Shown: piece by piece, positions 10,292 to 37,838 of the stretch
How positions within the stretch are numbered: position 1 is the first letter of the stretch
Layout: every line of letters starts with the position of its first letter
Source of the DNA: Apostichopus japonicus
Lineage: Eukaryota; Echinodermata; Holothuroidea; Aspidochirotida; Stichopodidae
Reading direction: 5' to 3'
DNA: 64,000 bases
NCBI RefSeq assembly: GCF_037975245.1
Contig: NC_092576.1
Coordinates: 29,986,611-30,050,610, forward strand
The notes under the pieces: model-generated
Told to the model about the DNA's origin: nothing
What the model saw: only the letters and a program-made list of their open reading frames with translations
The model's database searches: none
Translations under genes and position numbers: made by a program

Positions 10292-10696
10292 AAGTACTTG
10301 GCAGCACAGGTACAGAACAACATTATGCAAATACTCAAAAGTATTCTTAATTACCACATTATTACTCAGGTCATAGTTGTTAACAAATTATTTCCCTTGG
10401 AATTACAGTTAACATTTTTTAAGTTATTCCATTTTAATTTTCCTTGAAGCGTTTGCTTATCAGTCTTATTCAGGCTCAGGAAGTGACTTCCATCTCTGAG
10501 AATGTTTCCTCCACTCAGCTCATGAATGACCTTAAAAACAATTGATATGGAGAATTTGATGAGCCTCAAATTTGGACAATGAAATAGTTATTACACCCGA
10601 ATTTTAATGTATTATGTTTCTATTTGCTGACGTAAATTTTACATTTCGAGCAAAATTTTGTTAGCGACCTCACTGTTATCACTATTATCATTGCAG

Positions 10697-10884
10697 GTTT
10701 TAAGCAGCACGGTTGCTAATGCAATTGAATGCATGGGCAATGATGAGATGTCCTCGACAGTCTTTTTCATCAGAAAGATGAACGAATGGTTGGACTGTAT
10801 GAATGTTGCTAACACCACTCAGCATATTCGTAGCAGAACCCCAGACTTGCCCCCTACAGAACAGTTGATGATCAAAGATTTCAG
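10697..10884 (+). pseudogene. P element-like gene copy 1, exon C
   Basis: Bounded by TTGCAG and a GTATAT donor. Encodes VLSSTVANAIECMG and FFIRKMNEWLDCMNVANT, aligning residue for residue with exon C of copy 2 (55466-55654). Near 10850 one base is missing relative to copy 2. The expected PYxxVDDxRF ending appears in another frame. Confidence 0.8.
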
Positions 10885-11363
10885 GTATATCATCTTAATA
10901 GAAATGTTAAATTCGCTACTTATTTTCATCAGTTCCACAGGCATTTTAATCTCTTGTCATTGTGGTATTCTACCAACTATGTGACATTTTTTGAAAGGGC
11001 AGACTGCACAGACTGCAGGTATACACATGGAGATGAACGAACATTACTGAAAATTAATTTAAAAAACAATCAGGTTAATGAATCCATATTTACCTCAATG
11101 TGCACTTAAATAAAGCACAACAATTGTAGGTTCTGTTACTGATAACCAAATGTATTAGTCGACTGAAAGTAGAGAAATCAGGTGTTTGATTTTCTTGATT
11201 GATTTTCTTAAATCATAATAATATATAAGAGCTGTATAAAACACCTGTGCAAGCGCCTTTGATGTCACATGAAATACCTCTTTAGTGTACTAACACACTT
11301 TGACATACCTTATAGAGACAGATTTGGGGTACTTACTTGAAGCATTCTTTTTTTCACTTACAG
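10885..11363 (+). other. Intron between exons C and D
   Basis: AT-rich intron ending in a T-rich tract and TTACAG. Nothing else was recognised. Confidence 0.5.
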
Positions 11364-11497
11364 TGGCTCGAGAGCACCTTCCTTGCATTTCTCAGTGAGT
11401 GGTATCATGAGTCACAAAATGCAGAAGATATTCCAAAGAAGGAACGATACAGGCTTTTTATAAGCAGGGAAACATATACTGGACATCAAATGGAGTT
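11364..11497 (+). pseudogene. P element-like gene copy 1, exon D
   Basis: Follows TTTTTTTCACTTACAG. Encodes WLESTFLAFLSEWYHE, then KERYRLFISRETYTGHQ, matching exon D of copy 2 (WLENDFLGFLDEWYAE). The SRETYTG segment corresponds to the LSxxTxxG motif of THAP9-like proteins. No strong GT donor is seen at the end and the frame runs into TAG near 11499, so the 3' splice border is uncertain. Confidence 0.7.
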
Positions 11498-11501
11498 TTA
11501 G

Positions 11502-12566
11502 ATCTTGACTTCTTTACTCTTTAGATGTTTCTATGGAGAAACTAATCTTAAAGTATAAAAAGATCGACATACCTTTAAATACTATGTCCTTTCACGTTCA
11601 TATCCTGGATTGTTGCTAACGCCGGAATCCTCAGGCTAAGCCAGCTGGTGTTTAAGTTACCAGACTCTGTATAGGGTCGAAAGCTAGATACTATGGGCTA
11701 GATACTACAGGCTAGATGCTAATGATGGCGCTATGACGCTAAATAATATACGGCTTCGCGATCCAGTGGCTTCCAGTAAATAAATGGTATATGCTGTATC
11801 GCGTGAAGGCTTTCGCGACCGAATAGCTTCTAGGTACTAAAATGATATAGGTATGAACACGTAAACACTCTACGAATCGGTGGCGAATATTTTCGCCAGC
11901 CCCTTTTAGAAGTGTTGATGCTCACGCTACATCTATGGCTGTAGATATAAGTAAAAGTAGGTAAGGCGGACCTACGTATAAGTGCTATAGGTAGAATCAA
12001 GGGTAGGCTATATATAATTGGTAACGCTAAAATGTTCCTCGAAGTTAAGTCGACTTTAAGGTTGGATAAAGTGTCCTCGGGTAAAATCCACAGATAAAAA
12101 TAAAAGTTCTGTTAAAAGATCCTTAAATATACTAAAACTCGAGAATCAATCGCTGTAGAAGTCGTTCGCTACAAAATATATACGGTTTGCCAGGTTAATC
12201 GCTCGCGTCGCTCGTCGGTTGTGCCCACGCTTCCTAGAAACTTTCTAACCCCTGAAAATCAGGGGCTTCCGGAAACCCGTCACGGAATGTTCAATTCTAA
12301 AGGAGGGTGGACGAAACTAAATCACTACAACTCCATCATCATAGCAACTGAGAGGTTCAAGCAGCAAATCTTGCAAATCAGTTTGGCATATCACTCAAGC
12401 TGAACATGAGGTGTTATTATTCTCATCACCATGACCGTGTAAGTCAATAGTAAAGTTAGTAAATATCCATCAGAGTAATTAAGCTTATAGAGCCGATACA
12501 AATCAACAAGTACCCCTATTACGTATTATCATGTATAATAGTGATACGTTGTTGTTTTATTTACAG
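11502..12566 (+). other. Intron between exons D and E, holding unclassified repeat-like DNA
   Basis: The central part (about 11600-12340) is richer in GC than its surroundings and has repeated short phrases (GGCTAGATACTA, GCTTTCGCGACC and similar), plus a hairpin-like AACCCCTGAAAATCAGGGG near 12248. It looks like an inserted element, but I could not classify it. The intron ends with GTTTTATTTACAG. Confidence 0.4.
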
Positions 12567-12820
12567 TTAAATCCTTTGTGAGCCTGGCCAAGGAACTCCT
12601 CCAACTTCCAGATGTTGAATACGTTTTGAGTGAAAATTTTTCCCAGGATCCTTTAGAGGAATACTTTTCCAGGCAGAGAGTGTATGGTGGAAGTAATGAT
12701 AATCCCACAGTGGAGCAATTTGGCCATAATGCTTTATCGTTAATGGTTGCTGGTAGCAAAGCTATGAATTCAGTTCGAGGTAACTGTCGAAAAAGACCTA
12801 GAGACGAAGATTACCTGTAG
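12567..12820 (+). pseudogene. P element-like gene copy 1, last exon (E)
   Basis: Encodes LAKELLQLPDVEYVLSENFS, DPLEEYFSRQRVYGG and SNDNPTVEQFGHNALSLMV, then a basic tail and TAG at 12818-12820. This is the conserved C-terminal block of P element and THAP9-like transposases, with the SQDPLEEYFSRQR motif. It is open over its length. Copy 2 has no equivalent exon in this window. Confidence 0.8.
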
Positions 12821-12962
12821 TCGGGTTCCAAATGACTTTTTGATTTGATTTTAGTGCTGATCTCTGGTCACAGGGTCAAATATAAATATTTTCAGAATTG
12901 AATCATACTTCTTGATATTATTATACACATTTATTAGGGGGCGGGGCTTGAGTTGATTTTTT

Positions 12963-13600
12963 AGCTCATACCAGCATGCTGGTGTGAGCTATTGTTACAG
13001 TGCGGCGTCTATCACTCTATCATTCTATCACTCTATCCGTCAACAATTGGTAAAACCGCTCCCACTCGCACAGTGTTTGATGGAATTTCATGAAACTTGG
13101 ACACAAGGACCATTGGATATAGGGCCATCAGAGATGGTCCGAAATTTGGGGTCAAAGGTAACATGTGGGCCGTAATGGGCCATTTTGTGGAAATACGCAA
13201 AATGCTTCTTCTCGTACAGATTCCATGGTACAATGTTGAGGGTTTGTCACGATAGTACTATGGAAGTTTTACCTTCAGGGTGTTCATGAATTTGAGATGA
13301 AAGATCAACTAGGGGTCTTTTGTGGCCCGGGCCGCGGCCCTATATTTTCAAATTGCTTCCGTTCGTACAGTGTATGGCCAGTTATAATGAAACTTGGTCA
13401 CATTGTTCCTCGGGATGAGAGTTACGAGGGGTGTTCGGAAAATTGAGGTCAAATGTCATTTCGGGGGTCATTCTTTGTAATATTTTCAAATATCTCAATC
13501 TCCTCAAGATTTTGATGGATCATATTCAAAGTTGAACTGATGATTGTTGGATTGTGTATGAATTAGGTCATGCCTAATAATTTTTGGTCAAAAGTTAATT
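12963..13600. repeat. Interspersed repeat beginning with a near-perfect palindrome
   Basis: At 12963-12990 a 28-bp inverted repeat (AGCTCATACCAGC with its near-complement) starts a GC-richer block with short tandem TATCACTCTATC units near 13010. It continues with phrases such as ATGAAACTTGG repeated at about 13090 and 13398. It looks like an interspersed repeat. I cannot place the family. Its right border is uncertain. Confidence 0.4.
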
Positions 13601-15952
13601 AATTACAATTAATCCCCATTGTTTAAAAAAATCTGAGCCTTCACCTTTTGCCAAAGCTCCTTTAATTTGTCTTCCAGTCTCTGCAGTGCTTGTTTACATT
13701 TGTGGTTAAGCTCTGCAGAGGCTGTTAGTGGAATTAAAGCAGGACTGGGAGTTGTTATTAACTGTCGAACTGTAAGCATGAGAGCCCTATAGCCAATCAC
13801 CACTTGCCGATTCTTAGAAGTCTTTGAGCCTGAGGTATTGTAGGCAGCCAGCCAAAATTTTGGCAAGGAGTGCTTTTAAAAGGTCTGCTCAGGTAGAGGG
13901 GAGAAAGTTTAATAGGGTAGGTCAGTGGTATTGTTTGAGAGAGTGGGTAATATAGGATTTAAAGGGGGGAAATAGGAATTATAGCCAGTGGTGTGGCCAG
14001 GATTCTGCTAAAGGAGGGGGGGGGGGTATCCCTCACGGGCCCAAAATTGGTGGAATCTGAAAAATGGACAAAAATTTGCTGGGCCGTAAAGTTTTGTGGG
14101 CCCTACATTTTTAAGCTCGAAAAGGTATGAGCTTCTGCACCATTGGTGCTCTAGTTTTGGGAAATGGCTTCGAAACATGGTAAGTTAACATATTTAGTAT
14201 GTAGGTCCACAGTCAGTGAAAGAACCTTGCTGATCAATTTAATGAAGAATGACGAAAGCTTGGGATTATAATCACAATTGGCAAGGAATCACAATAAGCC
14301 CACTGGCTTTCTGGTTTAATATACTGATAAACATGACTCTGTAATTATGTAGAAAATGTACTATATCACACATCCTGTATAAATTAACAAATATTGAAAC
14401 TTTTGTTTATAAATATTAACTGTACCTTCAACTTTCACTTTGCAACTACTTTATGTTATCAAGACACTGTACATGCAAGCATATGCCTCCTAAGTAGGGG
14501 TTGAGGCAGAAATGGGGTCCTTTTTTATGTTTTGTTTGCACTTTTGAGGTATGGGAGGGTAAAATGCAAGCTGTGTCAGCCTATATCTGAGCAGGTAAAC
14601 AGGACTTCATGATAGTTAGTTTAAATATGATTTATGGTCTACCATCTCACCACAATTTACCTATGTTTAGTAAACAAATGAAGAGTCAAACCAAATTAGT
14701 ATGTGCCTCTGCTCTTTATTACTCTCTTGTCATTTGCAATATGTGTAATCTTAATAACTTGTGTATATTCCAATTGCAAACTGTCTGAGTGTCTTCTGGG
14801 GGTCTGAGAATCAAGTCACTAAACTTATGCTAATAGACTTCAACAGTATGTCACCAACCATACCGCAACGCAGGGTTGTATGAATAAACAAATGGTTGTA
14901 TCATACGGTCATACCTGTATGGCAACAGAGTCTGCCGTGGTGTTGCCTTCGCATTTACATGATATTTTACATGATATATTTGAAATTTGGCAGACTATAG
15001 TTACTTTGTAGAAGAAAACAAACAGGCATCACGTCTATGAAGAAAAAAAGTACCTTTCAAAAATGTCAGTTTATTGTACGCTTCTGATTTTCAATAGGTT
15101 CTGCTTTCAAGCCATTTCATTATGAATAAAAAAAATTACAGTATCAAATTACAAATTGTTATTTTTCTCATTGACATAACAAAGTTTTATTTACTGTTTT
15201 TATAAAAAATAAATTCCGTTTGTTCTGTTCCCTTGATGGCATAGTGAATCAGAAATGCCAAAAAAAAAAATCTTCATATGATATTATGTATAAAGTGCAT
15301 AGCAACTTTTACCCTGAAATGTAATATAAAGTAATCCCTAACATATAAATAAAATTGATGGTTAGGCTAGATTTCCATGTTGACTTCATGTGAAGTAAGG
15401 TTACCATGTGTTAGTGAATTTTAGGTTATTTTCAATGGTTAAACAAATGATGGTTAGCTGCCTAAACCCATGCTAAGTCTTTGACTCTTTTACTGTTTTG
15501 CTTTCGTATTTCCATATAAACCTTAACAAATGCATTTATTGACCCAATACTGTATAAATTGCTTTAGCAAGTGCTCCTTCAACTCTGAATTCAAATTTTC
15601 CATAACAAGATTACTCCACTGCTTCTTTTCATTTAACATCATTTTTGACAGCTTGATTTAGACATTTTCATTGCTCAATATAATTAACATTTTCATATTA
15701 AGGTTTTTTTTGGAATGGTATTCAAGTGTTTTGAAAAATACAAAAACAACATCATTTACAACAAAAAGACCTCCTCTGTTTTGCTTCTTGATCCAAGGAA
15801 TGTTGCTCCTTCTCCTGCAACGCACATTCCGTTGATGCAATTGAGAAACTTGCTGGCAATAGTGTTTTTTTATTTCGAATACCTCCTTCTGAGGGCGAAG
15901 GGTATATAGCCTGCAACATACCGCAAAACTTGTTCCTCATGTTTATCCAGAA
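13601..15952. other. No gene recognised; possible small repeat near 13980
   Basis: An 85-codon frame on the minus strand (13609-13866) has charged, helix-like content but no recognisable motif or splice sites. CAGTGGTGTGGCCAGGAT followed by a G run at 13982-14025 resembles the terminus of an animal hAT-type MITE, but no partner end was found. The rest is AT-rich with simple A/T runs. Confidence 0.35.
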
Positions 15953-29606: not shown

Positions 29607-29772
29607 AGTGCTTTTTACGTGACCCGCCCTGCGGCATCCAAAACGTCACGACCAAACGGCACTACTGAACCATCCCCTTCTACAACAAGCCACTAAAACA
29701 TTAAAAAAAAGGACGACCAGCACGCAGCGAAACGAAACACCCCTCCCCAGTGCACGAGCGTCCGAAAAAGGC
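29607..29772 (-). mobile_element. LINE-B 3' fragment, minus orientation
   Basis: Begins with GTGCTTTTTACGTGACCCGC, the complement of the LINE-B terminus, and continues through CAAAACGTCACGACCAAACG and the block with GGACGACCAGCACGCAGCG. It ends near CGTCCGAAAAAGG, where the gypsy fragment begins. Confidence 0.75.
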
Positions 29773-29779
29773 AAATTTC

Positions 29780-30600
29780 CCTCCAAACTCCGGGTAGGCT
29801 AGAACTGGTGCATTTGATAGAACTTTTAGTTTTGAGAATGATTCGTCAGCATCTGAGGACCACTCAAAAGTAGGCTATTACAGAATCCTTCAGGCATGCG
29901 ATTGAATTCGAATAAACCCCATGGAACTCTGAATGGGTGCACGGCTGCTTGGAAATAACCATTTGATACATCAAGAGAAGAAAATAGCTTGGTTCCTCCC
30001 AAGGCTGGGAAAGTCTCGTCTATCCTGGGCAAGTGAAATTAATCCTTCACAGTAACAGTGTTTAACTGTCGGTAGTCAATGCATATTCTAAGGGCACCTG
30101 ACTTCTTTGGGACTGACACAACAGGGCTGGCATAACGGCTACTGGATCGTCTGATGATATCATTAAATCACTCAGCAGTGTCTTTACTTCACCAATCTTC
30201 AGAGGGGGTATCCTTCGATATGGAAGTCTGATCGGTGTCTCGCTACTCGTATTTCATGAGGTACCAGGTTACAGAAGCCGAGGTCATATTCCCCCGAGGA
30301 AAGGCTTGAGCGTTCTTCAAGAGCATTGCAATTCGACACTCCTTATCATAGCTACTCCGCTCGTTAATTTAGGAATGTCTAACTGTAAACTCCCTACAGC
30401 CATGACTAAACCCTCTTTGCTCCTATTAGCATTCCTGAGTCCTGCAAAGACCTTCAACGCATTACAACCTAGCAAGATTAGGTCATCTTTCTTCCTTCCA
30501 GAGAGTGGACGCCAACTGCCAACGACTAAAAAAACTACCTCGGCTGATCCATCACATACCATTCGGTCGGAACTTCTGTCTTAGCTTCCCGACTACCATT
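29780..30600 (-). mobile_element. Ty3/gypsy-type pol fragment (protease-like region and RT N-terminal part)
   Basis: On the minus strand, 30317-30562 encodes LGCNALKVFAGL, resembling the end of a retroelement aspartic protease. About 30070-30170 encodes [20 protein letters not shown] then RQLNTV. The frame at 29826-30032 gives PRIDETFPALGGTKLFSSLD, GYFQAAV and LFEFNRMPEGF, the gypsy RT fingers and palm. The YxDD region, RNase H and integrase are absent. Several frame changes are present. It is a different copy from the one at 22-23 kb. Confidence 0.75.
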
Positions 30601-30714: not shown

Positions 30715-30843
30715 GATTTCTGTTTTGTATCAAGAAAGTTTCAGTTCTGTGATTGTAAATGGGTTGTTCAGAGGTTTTTAACGTAGAGAGGGGTGCGCCA
30801 GGGGTGCCCTCTGTCTCCATTACTTTATGTTTTGTTTAGTTTG
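30715..30843 (+). mobile_element. LINE reverse transcriptase fragment (L1/Tx1-like RT motif)
   Basis: The plus strand reads SVIVNGLF, then RGVRQGCPLSPLLYVLFSLK, the conserved RT block before the YxDD motif in APE-type LINEs. Only about 130 bases survive. It abuts the truncated end of the minus-strand USP-like frame, so its insertion, or a deletion, probably removed the gene's 3' end. Confidence 0.7.
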
Positions 30844-31430
30844 AAAAGGGACCCAAGACATGTTCCATTCGTTGTGCCAGAGGGTGCCAAATTGCCGGAC
30901 TCGCATGACTTATCTATCTTTGAGAGAACTAGTTGTATTGGTCCCTTCAGGAAAAATTCACTTGCATCACACTGCGTACTTCTTTCAAAATCGTACAATG
31001 CGCACATATGTTTTAGAGTATGGATCATTTCGCTATCACTTACCACCCTGCCGTGAAATAAGCTTCTCGATATATCTAGCAAAGTGTTAAGTCGCGAGTC
31101 ACTCACGGATAAGGTATTTTCCCGGAAACATCTGTCTATGCTGCCAATACGAATAAACTGCAAAACGGAACTGAACCCGCAGTTATTTTCTATATTTTCA
31201 AGCTGAGTGAACATAGGGGCGTTGTCATATACGTTGTGACATTCGCTTCCTTCACCTGTATATTCATTAATATTAATATAAGAAAGAACATTTCGTTCGT
31301 CATGAACGTTCTTATGGGGTGACTTTTGATATACTGAACTCTGTGAATGTAATGTTTTTCGCGACCATTTTTCACGTATTAAGTTGTTGTAGCGTTTATC
31401 AGCTGACTTATAGAAGTGTTTTACTACCAC
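30844..31430 (-). pseudogene. USP-like (C19) deubiquitinase N-terminal half
   Basis: The frame encodes LENIENNCGFSSVLQFI at residues 78-94, matching the USP Cys box (GxNxGNTCYxNSxLQ), with the candidate nucleophile at Cys84. QCDASEFF at residues 153-160 corresponds to the QQDAxEF motif of USPs. USPs remove ubiquitin by cysteine proteolysis. The His box and the C-terminal half are missing because the sequence ends at the LINE RT fragment. Upstream residues 1-50 are basic and continue from the preceding frame (GNENSSHRRTCRGINKR) across a frame change. Confidence 0.6.
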
Positions 31431-31858
31431 GAGTCTTTTGTTAATTCCTCGACAAGTTCGTCTATGCGATGAATTTTCGTTTCCCTAACTGTAGTTGCTT
31501 GAAAACCCCCATACGTTGCTCTGAATGAGCTATAGACCGTGGAAACAAAATGCTGCTTGGTTGTCCATTAGCAACCTGCCATTTATGGAGAGAACTTTGT
31601 AGCATATCTGGTGCAGATGGAAGCAGGATTCTTTGTATCTCTTTTAAGAAAGTTACACAAAAGACGCGACCTTTCTTTATAACTCTAATAAAATGTTCAG
31701 TGAAAGGGGAATTCATACGGGAAAGGAATGCATCGTCTGACAAATCAGTGTGTGTTCATCACCTTTTGTGGAAAAAAAGTTATTCTTTGGTGTAATCTCT
31801 TTAAGCAAGACGATACAAGGGGTGACGCGCATTGGAACGAAAGAACAACAGAAATATC

Positions 31859-32290
31859 CTAAACAATACCTTCTCCGTGTCTTATTTTGAGATTCAAACT
31901 ACTCCATGCACGGTTTAGGAACTGTTTGTAAATTTCGTTGTTGAAAACATGCATGGCAGCCAATAAAAATACCCATGCCCTATCACTGTTGATTTGTACT
32001 GGGGTTGATATGCTTCCATGTCCAAATAATAAGTTTTTCTTTAACCAATTCATAACAACATATACACTTTGATCTTCGGATAATAGCATGGACACCAGCA
32101 AGGTTGACTTACCCCTTTGTTAAATTTGTAACAGACAACTCGTAATAAAAAATTTGCTATTTACCACGGCCTCTGTCCAACACTCCACCGGTCGCGTCCC
32201 AGAATACTACGTCTGTTCTATACATATCGTGCCGTACCCTTAGTCCTCCTTCCGTGAAACGGACTAACAGATATTTGTTGGATGAAGCCG
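31859..32290 (-). pseudogene. Catalytic-core-like part of the transposase-like gene
   Basis: The minus strand reads RTDVVFWDATGGVLD near 32180-32215, then SEDQSVYVVMNWLKKNL and STPVQINSDRAWVFLLAAMH at 31859-32101. The two aspartates (WDATG and SDRAW) are spaced as in DDE/RNase H-fold transposases. The exon appears to end at GAGAAG before GTATTG, and the next begins after TTTTTCCACAAAAG near 31763. A third acidic residue is not assigned. Confidence 0.5.
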
Positions 32291-32436
32291 GGAACCCTAC
32301 CACGATGGTTATATTTAAAACAGTACTTCTGCTGCTTATTTAAAAGACTTTTGATTTCGCCTTCATCACGTTCCATACCTACTCTCACTTGAAATTTTCT
32401 GCATGACAGATAGCGTCAGTCGACATTCGTTTCTGT

Positions 32437-32674
32437 GATTTTTACGTGATCCGCCATGCGGTATACAAAACGTCACGGCCAAACGAAACTACCGAACCAT
32501 CCCATTCTGACAAACGAAACTCAGGTCAAGCGAGCCAAAAAAAAAAAACATACGCCCGCCGACCTGCAGAGACAAAAAACGCCCAACCCCCCCCAAACAT
32601 TCAAAGCACAACGAAAGGACGACCCGCACGCAGCGTAACGAAAAACCCCTCCCCAGCACACCACCGTCCAAAAA
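32437..32674 (-). mobile_element. LINE-B insertion (238 bp) with a 14-bp target duplication
   Basis: Flanked by ACATTCGTTTCTGT at 32423-32436 and 32675-32688. The left end is the complement of the LINE-B 3' terminus (TTTTTACGTGATCCGCCATGC in the plus strand). It interrupts the transposase-like gene. It is 5' truncated and non-coding. Confidence 0.85.
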
Positions 32675-32762
32675 ACATTCGTTTCTGTTATCCGATGCTA
32701 TTACTTCTGAAGATTTAGAATAGAGATTCCGCAAAAGAACTATCATTGGCTTCACACCCATG

Positions 32763-32990
32763 GAGAGGGTCTATCTAAGACCCTTATAGGCCGAGCATGG
32801 ATGTCGTACATGCTGTGCTTCATGTTTTCTTTGAAGTTCACCGTGCATAAATAGTTTCTATCAATGGAAATGCGTACGTTTACGGAACAATCTTCAAATT
32901 TGCAATACCCCTTGGCTCGGAATATAGTTTCACTAGTGTTATTGTCTATGTAACACCGGTGGAAAGGATGCTCGGTGGTGACATTCCTGG
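32763..32990 (-). pseudogene. Cysteine-containing segment of the transposase-like gene
   Basis: One minus-strand frame reads HPFHRCYIDNNTSETIFRAK, GYCKFEDCSVNVRISIDRN and a continuing KHSMYDIHARPIR. The GYCxFxxC pattern is shared by members of the same animal transposase-like family. It is open for about 75 codons, then stops near 32762. Confidence 0.5.
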
Positions 32991-33379
32991 GGGGTGGGGT
33001 GATGGGAGCTCCGGGGTCTCTGCTGATAACGAAAAGAATGACACGTTAGTTTTAGTACTAGTCCATGTATTATACCTGCTAGTACAAGTAACGTAGTGTC
33101 TTAGAAAAATGGATTTTCAGGCTAACCCACGCCCTGAAGGGTCTCCCAATCTGAACGGAAGGGTTTGACCAGTTCCGGTATTCAAATTCTAAGGCAGGCT
33201 GGCTATAATAATAAGAATGAAGGTTTATAATGCGCTAATTATAAACAACATTGTTGTCAAAAGCGCCATACATATAAATATGAATAAAAAGAAAAGCATA
33301 TACAATAATGCAACAATGAAATATAATTACAAATCAAATTGAAACATGTCTAGCATAGAGATATATATATTATAAATAC

Positions 33380-33760
33380 AATTGTGGATTAAAATAAGGA
33401 CCTTGAAATGTATACGCGTTTCAATTGGGAGCCAGTGTAATGCTTTAAGAAGAGGAGTAACATGTGTAAACTAAGTTTGCTTGAAGATAAGTTTGGCAGC
33501 CCAGTTTTGACACTTTGAGATTTTTTGAAAATAGAATTACAGAAATGGAGGCGGGATGTAACAAAAGCATGGATTAATTGCTCACTTTCTTTGGAGAGAT
33601 ATGGTCCGACTGATTTCATATTCCTTAAGTGAATGAATACAACAAGATTTAATGACATTAGAAATGTTAATGTGTTGTTTTCAAGAGAGAAGTTTGAATG
33701 AAGTGTTACCCCTAAGTTGCGAGCCTGATGACATGGATTTACAATCACTCCGCAGAGATT
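33380..33760 (-). mobile_element. LINE reverse transcriptase C-terminal fragment
   Basis: Minus-strand frame with ARNLGVTLHSNFSLE, LRNMKSVGPYLSKESEQLIH and AFVTSRLHFCNSIF, the conserved block following the RT palm in CR1/L2-type LINEs. The last part is frameshifted (LLLFLKHYTGSQLKRVYISR corresponds to the LKxLHWLPVxxRI block). It lies between the N-terminal and middle parts of the transposase-like gene. Confidence 0.75.
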
Positions 33761-33865
33761 TCAAGTTATGTTTGGTAAGGGTTTCCGTGTAGATTTTGGG
33801 GCCAAAAGAGCATGGCTCTACATCTATAAGATAATGGTATTTAAACATGATAACACTACAAGGGT

Positions 33866-34303
33866 TTATTTTAGACATACTTCTATGAAATACTTTTGCC
33901 ATTCCCTTGTAGGAAGACACCTACCACGTATTTTACTTAATACTGTATTATAAGTGTCTGCATTGATTGAAAATGTTCCCTTGTTGGGAAACTGCTTAAA
34001 AATGTAGTCATCCTTATTTGCTTGTGATCCAGACAACACACTTAACGTCTCATTTGATACACGGCTGACAACTTCTGTACTTTCATTCTTACATGAATCG
34101 GTGTTTGTATCATTACATTCATGGCTTGATTGGGCGGTAGGAGGTTCCGGGTGTTCTATTTCACTCGAGTTCAAGATTTCTTTCAACTTCATGCCATCTT
34201 TATCATGGTGTAGCTTAAATACATGCTTTCCGTTGTTACACTTGCCAATACCGCAATAAAATGTTACATTGAAACCAGACTTGACCGTTGAAGGAATACT
34301 CAT
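33866..34303 (-). pseudogene. N-terminal segment of the transposase-like gene, unrecognised
   Basis: A 145-codon frame starting at ATG 34303 (MSIPSTVKSGFNVTFYCGIG). It has a CGIGKCNNGKH motif that may bind metal, an acidic Ser/Thr/Asn-rich middle, then FSINADTYNTVLSKIRGR and REWQKYFIEVCLK. I do not recognise a domain. It has the same strand as the catalytic-like segment 1.6 kb downstream and is assigned to the same gene by order only. Confidence 0.4.
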
Positions 34304-35357
34304 ACGTTTGACATGTGCAATACTTTCTTATCATATTAATGTCGACCCAGTTACTTGAAAATCTTACTGGCTTACGTTTACTTTTTATTCCTTGGTTTTG
34401 TTCTTGTTGCTACTTTTCCCAATTCTACTAGGAACCGTTTGTTTCCTCTGTTATTAAACCGGACCTTCACTGACCTCTTGCGATTTTTTTGTGGACCAGC
34501 CCAGCTTCATAACTACACTCTCCCAGAAAGCTTTTGATGATGATGAGGTAACCGTCACCTTTTTTCTCACTGACGATATTGCGGCAGAGATCTTGGCATA
34601 GTCGGTACACGCAGGTCGTCCTCGCATGTGAGCACCGCCCTTTAGCAGAGAGAAATCCCTTGTCAGTGTTCGTTCCAGGAAATGTTCGTGTGACTCTTTC
34701 TATAAAAGGGTAAATTGTATTGCAGGTTATATATCATTTCGTTCTTTTTTCTTTCAATATTTCACTTATGGTCATGAATGAATTATGCTTACTATATATA
34801 TATACAAATTTATATATATATATGCTGTCATGATACTCACGTAAGCACTACGTAGTCAATCAGTCATCCAAACGAAAAGTTGCAATTGCGTGATGCACGC
34901 CGAATACCGTTGTACCACATTCGCATGACTACACAGCAGTTTGACTTCAATGAAAATCAGGTAAATACTGCTTTCAGGTCGAGAGTAAACGGTCATTCTC
35001 CCTTCCAGGGCCAAGACGTAATAGAAAGAACATTTCAGTGGGATTAGAAAGCAGCTTCTAATTGTAACGCAGCCTTCGTCCTCGGATGTTTTGCTGAAAC
35101 ATGTAGTGAATTCACCTTTGCTTCGAAGAAATTTAAAGGGGGGGGGGCATATATTCCTCTGGGCCGAAAACATGCAGGATTAGGGTATGGGTTGAAGCTG
35201 GAACACTTAATACCAGAACCGGTTCTCTGTGTTTGCATCTGTTTATGTACTAGTACGTGGTGACATAGACTTTTGACGGAAGGTGACCGTATTTGAATAA
35301 TCTGGCTAATTTTGGCCCAATACAGTATACCTTTTAGCAGGAGAATGAGAAATTTAC
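34304..35357. other. No gene recognised; AT microsatellite
   Basis: A (TA)n-rich tract lies at about 34792-34824. Minus-strand frames at 34856-35173 and 35044-35382 show no family motif. The expected DDE-containing exons of the Harbinger gene immediately to the right were looked for and not found here. Confidence 0.4.
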
Positions 35358-35473: not shown

Positions 35474-36098
35474 CTGTGAATGTGAATATATATAATATGC
35501 TATGTTATTCATTGAAGTGCCTTGTTATTGGATCATTGCATATAAAATCATCAAATTTTGTACTTCGAAATCTTTGAAAAATTTCTCTTGTGGAGAAAAA
35601 TTGGCATCAAAACTTTACAGATGCACAACTTGCAAATATATAATAGGAAAGCATTGTAATCCTTCTTTGTTTGTACTAGGCATAATAACCTCTGAAAGAA
35701 TCAAGTACCATGAAGCAATGATTTAGGAGCTATTCATCACTAAAAATAGCACATTTTTTAGTGAAAAGTAAAAAATTCGAATATTTTCACACTTCTAAGT
35801 TGATCTCACTCCACCAGACAATATTTTTGTAGCATAATTTTATTTCCTGTTCTATGGGATAGACTCTACAGGCATCTGTAATAGAAAGGTAGTGGAATGT
35901 TTAATTGCTGACAAATTATTTTATGCTGGTCCAATCATACAAAAAATTTCGGCATTTTTGGAGAGGTTGCAGCAAGAGTCATCCGTGATTTTGACAAGAA
36001 ATGACCCTATTAATAATACGTCAATTGTTTAACAATTCTATCCTGTCATTTCTTTTGTAACGTTATAAACATAGCAAACCGTTTTCTTTTTTTGCAAA
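35474..36098 (-). other. Intron of the Harbinger-like gene, left part
   Basis: AT-rich with short open frames and no recognisable sequence, ending at the first subterminal repeat of foldback 2. Confidence 0.5.
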
Positions 36099-36793
36099 CC
36101 AGCCTGGTCATTTCGCCCAACCAGCCTGGTCATTTCGCCCAACCTTGATTAAATATGATACTTCAAAAGGAAACGTTCGGGAATTGTTAACGTTACAGGA
36201 TACAAACCGAATATTAAGGAAACTGGAGGATCGATCAGTGTGTTAGGTGTTAAGGAAACTTGAAGTCGTGGTTAAATTGATTAGGCCTACTTATGTGATT
36301 ACATGTGTGGTTACATTGATAAAGTGGTTACATTGATTAAATATAGTACTTCAATATTACGGACGGGTTTTATATTTATTTTTTTCAATTTAATAAGGAA
36401 ACGTTCGGGAATTGTCAGTCAGTAGGATGGATCAGTGTTTTAGGGGTTAGGTTTGATAGGTTTTTATGAACACCGATTCCCCTGTGTTTGTATAATAATA
36501 TAACTTCCATTGTATGAGTAAACGCCTAAAGTAGTGTAATCCTCCCATTATACCCGAAATAACTGCTCGGACTCCGATCGATATCGAGCGGACCTCACTT
36601 TTTTATTTACCTATAACGAATTAACCTAACCCAAAATAAATCAAATTGAACTAGTGGAAAAGAAAAAGTAATATTATTCTGACTGAATATTAGTAAAAAT
36701 ATGGTTGGGCGAAATGACCATGATGGTTGGGCGAAATGACCATGCTGGTTGGGCGAAATGACCATGCTGGTTGGGCGAAATGACCAGGCTGGT
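36099..36793. mobile_element. Foldback element with inverted arrays of a 22-23 bp unit (foldback 2)
   Basis: Two direct units of CCAGCCTGGTCATTTCGCCC(AA) lie at 36099-36142. At least four units in inverted orientation (TTGGGCGAAATGACCA) lie at 36703-36793, followed by a degenerate copy to about 36815. The 560-bp interior is non-coding and contains scattered TTAGG-like phrases (AGGGGTTAGG, TTAACCTAACCC). The arms would pair into a long hairpin. It sits in the intron of the Harbinger-like gene. No clear target duplication was seen. Confidence 0.75.
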
Positions 36794-37372
36794 GACCAGG
36801 CGAAGTGACTAGTGACACCATCTCAAGAGTATGTAATCCACTGTTAAGACGATACATTTAATTGCAAACAATTTCCATAGCTTAAAGTAAAACTGCATAC
36901 CTGTGGCTAGAAATCTTGTCGTTATTGCCAACTTGACGTCTGCTGGGCAGTGCCTCCCGAAGAGCGTATTCTTCTCTTCAATCATTGGTGACACCAGTCG
37001 AAGTATGTTAATGAAATGATCATGGTTCATACGCATAAACCTACGATAACTGGGGGCATATTTATCCCTCAATTCCGGTAAAATATTTGAAAATTCGCTA
37101 AATTTAGCCCTTTCTTATATCCCCGATCGCTGCCAGCATGATCCTCTTGCTTCTGCCCTTGTCTTTGCGAGCTTTGAAAAGACTAGCGACAACGACTGCG
37201 ACCGCAAACCTCCGTTTTTCTTCGCCCGAGAAGTGACGTCGACTACTAATTTTAGCTGCCATTTCGAAATTGTTTTCATAATCGATTCTGTAGTTGTCTG
37301 GACACTCGCGCGTATGTCACCACAAAGTGTGCCTCTAGTTGCGAGTTGAATCTCGTGTTGAATCGCGCAGAT

Positions 37373-37440
37373 GTGACCCGACCCGACCTTGGACAGGCTG
37401 GCTGGCCGTGACGTTTTGTATCCCGCATGGCGGATCACGT
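37373..37440 (+). mobile_element. LINE-B 3' terminus fragment
   Basis: GGCCGTGACGTTTTGTATCC, then CGCATGGCGGATCACGT, matches the LINE-B 3' end. It is followed immediately by a second LINE-B copy, and the bases AAAAAGCACAAACTG occur at both ends of that copy. Confidence 0.7.
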
Positions 37441-37455
37441 AAAAAGCACAAACTG

Positions 37456-37823
37456 GTCGGTAGGACAGGACTTTGTTTTCTATGGGTTAGATCCTCCAGT
37501 TTGTTCTGTTGCTGTGTTGCAGCGTATTATTTTTGTTTGTTCTGTTTAAAAAATATATATATATGGAGGAATAGATGTGGTTTTTAGGGGGAAATTTGCC
37601 AGTTGGCAGGCAGTCCTGGAGGCGGTCAAGTCTGACATGCGCTTTCCGGTTGAAGGCGATTTTGCCGTTTATCAGGGGCTGCCTTTTTTGGACGGTGGTG
37701 TGCTGGGGAAGGGTGTATATGTACTTTTTTGGCTCGCTTGACCCGAGTTTCGTTTGTAAGAATGGGATGGTTTGGTAGTGCCGTTTGGCCGAAACGTTTT
37801 GTATCCCGTATGGCGGGTCACAT
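37456..37823 (+). mobile_element. LINE-B copy inserted in the tail of another LINE-B
   Basis: Flanked by the 15-bp direct repeat AAAAAGCACAAACTG (37441-37455 and 37824-37838). It contains the 5' phrase with AGATCCTCCAGTTTGTTCTG and a coding remnant parallel to that at 1.6-1.9 kb (FASWQAVLEAVKSDMRF, then AVYQGLPFLDGGVLGKG). It then passes directly into the 3' region with GGCTCGCTTGACCC and the terminal GGCGGGTCACAT. It encodes no RT. Either a nested insertion or an unequal duplication would give this structure. Confidence 0.7.
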
Positions 37824-37838
37824 AAAAAGCACAAACTG

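Follow-up and report, generated by a model that had tools for sequence, protein, structure and literature searches.

A fossil transposon in the sea cucumber Apostichopus japonicus and relatives encoding a predicted protein with a PHD finger, a probable DDE transposase core and ubiquitin- and SUMO-protease domains

The window analysed here comprises 64,000 nucleotides of the Apostichopus japonicus genome (RefSeq assembly GCF_037975245.1, contig NC_092576.1, positions 29,986,611 to 30,050,610) and contains, on its minus strand, the remains of a DNA transposon of a family here termed A. This window copy is a fossil, and the case is built on its relatives, the best-kept of which encode one long predicted protein consisting of a PHD finger, a core of approximately 620 residues, a peptidase family C19 (ubiquitin-specific protease, USP) domain and a C-terminal family C48 (ULP1) domain. 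The window copy corresponds to positions ~10426-13952 of a 22.5-kb element on contig C14 (blastn), whose 1446-residue protein is designated P0007, with homology extending upstream to 35258, beyond the end of the segment (30844-34303) delimited in a preliminary description of this locus. Residues 5-963 of P0007 are collinear with window positions 34503-30927 in thirteen tblastn pieces (E 0.0 to 5e-37), eleven of which share 72-94% identity with P0007, while the other two share 57% and 60%, the first of these crossing an internal deletion. The following features were distinguished:

30930-35258, minus strand: decayed, truncated family-A transposon, both element ends missing (blastn of the C14 element, nine pieces, 87-93% identity; tblastn of P0007)
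34302-34503, minus strand: N-terminal part, P0007 residues 5-73, spread over two frames; no match to residues 74-90, which belong to the PHD finger (tblastn)
33822-34315, minus strand: remaining PHD region, linker and core start, P0007 residues 91-255 (tblastn)
32950-33822, minus strand: 873-base insert within the gene (gap between tblastn and blastn pieces)
32675-32949, minus strand: core, P0007 residues 254-350 (tblastn)
32438-32674, strand not assigned: 237-base insert, a short interspersed repeat (window self-comparison)
31778-32437, minus strand: core, P0007 residues 346-625, disrupted by stops, shifts of frame and an internal deletion, carrying WDATG and SDRAW (tblastn)
31430-31755, minus strand: core, P0007 residues 655-783, with the third conserved acidic residue, the Glu of SEQRM at ~31521-31519 (tblastn; Glu invariant in alignments)
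30927-31427, minus strand: core end and N-terminal part of the USP, P0007 residues 793-963, with ENNCGFSSVLQ and QCDASEFF and without the His box (85% identity to P0007)

The preliminary description had noted transposase-like and USP motifs in succession, and had proposed that they derive from one ancestral protein. The motifs are real and lie on the same strand in the order given, namely WDATG (~32201-32187), SDRAW (~31987-31973) and NNCGFSSVLQ (~31187-31158), with QCDASEFF farther along in the same frame as the latter, all collinear with P0007. The first conserved Asp of the core falls within WDATG and the second within SDRAW, both being invariant in the core alignments. Three acidic core residues and the USP Cys are still legible in the window copy; the middle of its PHD finger is gone. 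The copy is dead, since its pieces lie in different frames and it carries stops, an internal deletion and the 873-base and 237-base inserts; no single frame joining WDATG and SDRAW with the USP motifs occurs within the window. The copy ends abruptly at 30927-30930, within the USP, and consequently lacks the USP His box and the ULP1 domain. A search with the USP profile PF00443, as the preliminary description had advised, fell short for the window piece (14.9 bits against a Pfam cut-off of 23.9; E 0.021) and succeeded in the relatives, on which the identification of the window USP therefore rests.

Relatives were sought in the whole genome (G000; 671.6 Mb, the window lying on contig C16), the resulting match lists being lower bounds. 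PF00443 gave at least 91 matches, many of them in open frames of 1000-2000 codons that recur on several contigs. The other inspected USP matches are short pieces, as in exon-split genes, and belong to distinct genes, and a host USP gene was rejected as the source of the segment. When the window USP piece was used as query, five copies were recovered on other chromosomes at 86-87% identity, in frames of 1340-1509 codons, and the SDRAW piece recovered the same five copies in the same frames (81-83%). These five family-A relatives share 97-99% identity with one another in the stretches compared, and all encode the core (with DATG and SDR), the USP and the ULP1 domain in one open frame, which in four of the five includes the PHD finger. 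The joint occurrence of the transposase-like core and PF00443 in a single frame, for which the preliminary description had proposed to examine better-kept relatives, is thus borne out in them. Its suggestion of one protein carrying its own deubiquitinase stands, while two domains escaped its inventory, namely the PHD finger and a SUMO protease of the ULP1 type. No relative was seen in which the USP segment is a separate host gene or belongs to a different insertion.

Six lineages (families A-F) could be distinguished. P0007, counted from its ATG, incorporates the PHD finger at residues 68-111, the core at 199-816, the USP at 871-1143 and ULP1 at 1274-1439, and the same order is found in family B (2017 residues; PHD 185-228, core 504-1125, USP 1241-1520, ULP1 1825-2003). 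The family C protein (1444 residues) comprises PHD 69-117, USP 123-407, core 503-1131 and ULP1 1278-1421, and that of family D comprises PHD 247-295, USP 302-586, then the core, and ULP1 1432-1591. The USP, core and ULP1 of family E share one frame, with the PHD finger in a separate one, and the domains of family F are split across frames by a break between core and USP. The order of USP and core varies, the USP coming first in families C, D and E and second in A, B and F. In representatives of A, B, C and D the PHD, USP and ULP1 domains exceed the Pfam cut-offs within a single frame.

Sixteen loci of these six lineages (L001-L015 and L033) were picked from the PF00443 list on the basis of long frames or a position beside a core; further degraded USP matches beside cores (e.g. 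on C7, C8, C10 and C17) were left out of the tally. Both a core match and a PF02902 (ULP1) match are present at 16/16 loci, and at twelve of them a single open frame spans core, USP and ULP1. Ten of these twelve also include the PHD finger (family A on C14, C8, C4 and C3; B on C8 and C12; C on C16 and C3; D on C1 and C20), which in the family-A copy on C22 and in family E lies in another frame. Two observations weigh against the explanation favoured below. Firstly, four of the sixteen loci do not keep core, USP and ULP1 in a single frame, namely family B on C20 (PHD and ULP1 both in other frames), D on C2 (ULP1 in another frame), D on C16 (split core, ULP1 in another frame) and F. Secondly, since the loci were chosen by their USP match, the 16/16 co-occurrence does not show that a USP accompanies every core, and relatives of the core do exist in which neither PF00443 nor PF02902 is detectable. 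These form group G (core matches at C19:863076, C17:9347542 and C16:5229511, without PF00443 or PF02902 among the matches listed nearby), and the recognised protease pair is therefore missing from some relatives. A 199-residue family-A fragment on C10 is likewise without a listed PF00443 or PF02902 match. In two group-G loci (L085, 2366-4900 and 6608-6952, plus strand; L086, 4789-2014 and 1020-826, minus strand) the core, preceded in L085 by a PHD finger, is followed downstream by a Cys-box-like NTCPxDNLx and, in a separate frame farther 3', by a His-box-like HF..W..YDGL, as judged by eye. Group G may encode a very divergent, intron-split protease that is invisible to Pfam. A short core match (residues ~500-613), again with neither domain among the matches listed nearby, recurs at C12:31487369 and seventeen similar places (35-40% identical, mostly with one internal stop), and may mark another related family with more members. 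Among viral contigs, 38 pattern matches yielded no confirmed relative.

The preliminary description had also recommended a search for terminal repeats, and related inverted ends with 9-bp target duplications (8 bp in one family-B copy) were found for families A and B. Near-identical family-A copies part ways at ACCGGGCTGAAGCTGGCCAACAG, which marks the left boundary, and the right ends are mostly ACCGGACTGAACCTGGCCGACAG on the opposite strand. A genome scan for the family-A terminus (three or fewer mismatches) returned 22 forward and 19 reverse matches, against none for a reversed-pattern control. The inverted ends match at 20/23 terminal bases in family A and at 20/25 in family B; the A left end and B right end share TGAAGCTGGC, and the other two ends differ at one base from GAAGCTGGC. 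Family-A ends were paired by position and thirteen pairs, with the C9 pairs and a few others left out, were read for target duplications, of which ten are exact 9-bp duplications, two are of 8 bp and one is of 6 bp (C20). The exact 9-bp class includes all five USP-bearing copies (C14, C3, C4, C8 and C22) along with C3b, C4b, C11, C8b and C17, the last after a duplicated end motif. The USP therefore moves with the element, given that each of the five copies bearing it is enclosed by related inverted ends and by an exact 9-bp duplication. These five gene-bearing elements measure 20.3, 22.5, 22.9, 27.6 and 34.9 kb. The 8-bp duplications flank a C10 element with two left ends and a 2,275-bp element on C22 (L069 78-2352; C22:16568477-16570751) which has family-A ends and is probably a short non-autonomous derivative. 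Family-B elements of ~19.3-21.5 kb have the ends ACTCAGTAGAAGCTAGCGGACAATA and ATCGAGTTGAAGCTGGCGGACAATA, and the duplications in three copies are CTGAGTTAC and CGATCGCGA (exact, 9 bp) and CGTTTATT (8 bp). Ends were not found for families C, D, E and F.

Satellite arrays accompany the gene in both families with known ends. On C14 the family-A gene lies between oppositely oriented arrays of a 213-bp unit, ~7.0 kb on the left and ~4.7 kb on the right, and the C4 copy has arrays on both sides over the stretch read, these two being the copies that were read far enough. In two family-B copies an array of a 172-bp unit (3.9-5.9 kb) lies on the left side, the right side showing no more than an inverted match of 70%. 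The predicted gene is accordingly bounded by the inverted ends and target duplications of the element, with satellite arrays adjacent on both sides in A and on the left in B. Frames of only 101-120 codons occur in the 5' stretches of one A and one B copy searched for a second gene.

The transposase assignment rests on the core. D234, D310 and E555 (core numbering) are invariant in an alignment of seven cores, comprising families A-E and two group-G proteins, at identities to the family-A core of 30-41% for the other A-E families and 22-26% for group G. A conserved His at core position 359 is part of a C-x2-H motif in A, B and G. Eukaryotic cut-and-paste transposases typically have such a motif between their second and third catalytic residues. 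Profiles of the cores were compared by hhalign with those of Mutator-like transposases from the same genome (L034-L039), giving an E value of 0.19 with five cores, and of 0.03, 0.28 and 0.0093 with seven cores against three Mutator-like element (MULE) sets. In 60 column shuffles the scores underlying the values of 0.03 and 0.0093 were never attained, and the first Asp is in register in the alignments, as is the second in one comparison (A5-A2). Several results weigh against the assignment. The core is without a match over the cut-off in Pfam, PDB sequences or NCBIfam, its two Pfam rows being at chance level (best E 0.087), and it does not match the Pfam MULE model. The profile link itself is weak, with the best of six comparisons at E 0.009 (hhalign probability 4%), the remaining ones at 0.018-0.33 and two small MULE profiles at 0.28-0.71, while for a profile of group G only the reversed control scored above the real one. 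Profile comparison thus lends weak support to a link with Mutator-like transposases, and on the basis of the invariant D, D and E, the element structure and this weak profile match the core is probably a DDE transposase, which may be Mutator/Rehavkus-like.

The USP profile matches at E 1.8e-20 to 2.1e-30 in families A-C (1.8e-20 in P0007) and PF02902 at 7.4e-26 to 1.1e-12 in the same families, while PF00628 (PHD) exceeds its cut-off in A, B, C, D and L085 and falls just below it in F (22.7 against 24 bits). USP Cys and His boxes are present, that of Cys in family F lying in a neighbouring frame, and the catalytic boxes are kept between lineages despite USP identities of 18-23%. Beside the catalytic Cys, L013 reads NSCRFAA and L011 NSCWFAA. 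The nearest solved relatives of the PHD finger are BPTF and PHF2/PHF8 for A and B, and Drosophila partner of snf, TAF3 and DIDO1 for C, with Spp1 and ING4 also among them; several of these eight proteins are readers of trimethylated histone H3 lysine 4.

The origins of the two proteases appear to differ between families, as read from pairwise scores. Compared with B and F, the family-A USP reaches 57-59 bits, as against 40 bits with the best solved USP (USP8) and 28-43 bits with C, D and E. The PHD and core scores order the families likewise, placing A closer to B and F than to C-E. The nearest solved USP is USP8 for A, USP21 for B, and FAF-X and USP15 for C. The USP of A, B and F may therefore have a common origin, and that of C-E may be separate or have moved. 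The family-A ULP1 domain aligns to SENP1 with 111.6 bits (E 1.8e-31; HW, YYDS and DCG in register), against 20 and 44 bits to its sister elements B and C, respectively, and looks to have been separately acquired or replaced; the nearest solved ULP1 relatives are SENP1 for A and B and SENP5 for C. The shifted USP position, together with the far higher score of the family-A ULP1 against SENP1 than against sister elements, suggests repeated recruitment, the proteases being acquired or replaced more than once. Against this, fast evolution could mimic the pattern of scores.

Among described transposons, Rehavkus elements have a PHD finger in the transposase, a 9-bp target duplication and a minisatellite, with terminal inverted repeats of 26-400 bp (PMC6446971), and Rehavkus-1_TC of Tribolium, 9.5 kb in length, has inverted termini that contain tandem arrays with a 164-bp unit (PMC10218199). 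The likeness, drawn from published features, lies in the PHD finger, the 9-bp duplication and the satellite arrays, which here are inverted with a 213-bp unit. In contrast, the matched ends here are short (20/23 and 20/25 bases), the A and B elements are larger (19-35 kb), and the host is an echinoderm, its COX1 being read best with AAA as Asn and ATA as Ile, rather than a member of the Arthropoda or Annelida (Rehavkus-1_HR being from Helobdella), while ubiquitin, Ulp1 and peptidase are absent from the main text of PMC6446971. Ginger1 transposases carry a C-terminal Ulp1 or OTU protease domain, with a PHD finger in one family (PMC2836005), but have a Gypsy-type integrase, and a USP is not given in the accessible text of that paper. 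The same source cites Mutator elements with an Ulp1 domain in plants, hydra and lancelet, which resemble the present elements in this respect; no USP is stated for them there, and the core described here has no MULE match in Pfam. It also lists a Trichomonas vaginalis transposase with a peptidase C19 domain (XP_001314237.1), a printed precedent for the union of USP and transposase, for which the accessible text states neither PHD nor Ulp1 and in which the transposase is of the transposase_11 (IS5-like) type. A Ginger or IS5-like origin was rejected, as no integrase-type or transposase_11 match was found by Pfam in the frames scanned. VANC proteins of the Arabidopsis VANDAL elements are sequence-specific anti-silencing proteins (PMC10398659) and offer a likeness as a transposon-coded counter to host silencing, with no protease or transposase fusion mentioned in the accessible text. 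PHD, ubiquitin, Ulp1 and peptidase all go unmentioned in the accessible text of PMC13359780. Transposases with Ulp1 or OTU domains, and one with C19 in Trichomonas, are thus already known, and no description of PHD, transposase, USP and ULP1 in one protein was found in the literature consulted, with Repbase and most subscription papers outside its scope.

Animal cells build silent chromatin using SUMO and ubiquitin, and host silencing of transposons in animals uses SUMO. The best explanation, to which we would give an even chance, is that of a large DNA transposon with a PHD-guided transposase, the proteases of which strip ubiquitin and SUMO and so act against host silencing. The core would bind and cut the element ends as a Mutator/Rehavkus-like DDE transposase, while the PHD finger would tether the fused protein to open chromatin methylated at histone H3 lysine 4. 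There the two proteases could act locally on silencing proteins, histones or the transposase and free these of ubiquitin and SUMO, leaving the element expressed and mobile in spite of host silencing. Chromatin or silencing substrates are favoured over self-protection because the two proteases share a protein with a histone reader and were apparently acquired repeatedly, and the candidate substrates would rank as silencing factors or histones first, protection of the transposase second and repair third. A broader proposal, that a PHD-bearing Rehavkus-like lineage repeatedly recruited or exchanged ubiquitin and SUMO proteases, in varied positions, as a general silencing escape of animal transposons, is a more tentative possibility.

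Somewhat less likely again is that the proteases deconjugate the transposase itself, sparing a large protein from proteasomal destruction, with no chromatin substrate. Their fusion to the very protein they would shield fits such a role, which however requires neither a SUMO protease alongside the ubiquitin protease nor a PHD finger. The preliminary description had put forward both this role and a counter to host silencing as possible purposes. That the proteases instead target repair factors under ubiquitin or SUMO control, at the breaks made by excision or insertion, appears doubtful, given that most transposons manage without such proteases. A repair role has nevertheless been proposed for the Ulp1 and OTU domains of Ginger1 transposases (PMC2836005), a source that suggests a part for these domains in transposition and in the accessible text of which a functional test is not given.

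It is improbable that the domains are passengers, i.e. captured host USP and SENP exons carried without selection in the manner in which Mutator-like elements capture gene pieces. The variable USP position and the differing nearest relatives of ULP1 would be consistent with capture, as would a 13.8-kb family-A element (C11:22412682-22426459) with a ULP1 match and no listed PF00443 match, from which internal loss of the USP seems to happen. Against it stand the co-occurrence of core, USP and ULP1 at all of the USP-chosen loci, the retention of the catalytic boxes noted above, and the lack of any stop in the best-matching stretch of each domain in fourteen copies of families A-D, with breaks occurring outside these stretches. 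The ratio of nonsynonymous to synonymous polymorphism (pN/pS), pooled over within-family pairs, is 0.30 for the core, 0.27 for the USP and 0.64 for ULP1, from small counts and pairs that are not independent. Weighing against the favoured explanation, the ratio is 0.79 for the family-A USP alone (4 synonymous and 12 nonsynonymous differences) and, for ULP1, 0.52 in A and 0.75 in D.

Processing of the long protein by its own proteases into transposase and accessory parts, for which the long frame with two protease domains recalls viral polyproteins, is very unlikely, since the C-terminal glycines of ubiquitin or SUMO mark the point after which C19 and C48 enzymes cleave, and no ubiquitin-like domain turned up in Pfam scans of the frames. 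A chance juxtaposition of two unrelated fossils, to which the fragmented window copy and the other repeats present might point, is refuted by the collinear single frames, joining core and USP, on five other contigs.

One protein here unites a histone-tail reader, a probable transposase and a predicted deubiquitinase and deSUMOylase, and does so in near-identical open-frame copies. This opens the question of whether jumping genes strip ubiquitin and SUMO to evade control, and if repeated recruitment is true the proteases would represent an adaptive theme. As near-identical open copies are at hand, each domain can be separately inactivated and the effect on silencing and transposition measured.

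The window gave no Rfam matches and includes several other repeats. A frame at 33760-33389 (minus strand), within the 873-base insert, resembles by eye the C-terminal end of a long interspersed nuclear element (LINE) reverse transcriptase. Beside the truncated end of the transposon lie a Gypsy-type reverse-transcriptase-like frame (FSSLDVSNGYFQ; 29826-30038, minus strand) and a LINE reverse-transcriptase-like frame (RGVRQGCPLSPLLYVL; 30787-30850, plus strand), both recognised by eye. The interspersed repeat of ~240 bases that forms the 237-base insert (32438-32674) recurs as copies or pieces at 728-908, 1565-1796, 29612-29768, 37403-37445 and 37685-37828. Units resembling FAQPAWSFRPT occur in frames of both strands at 36061-36822, and possibly represent a short tandem or interspersed repeat.

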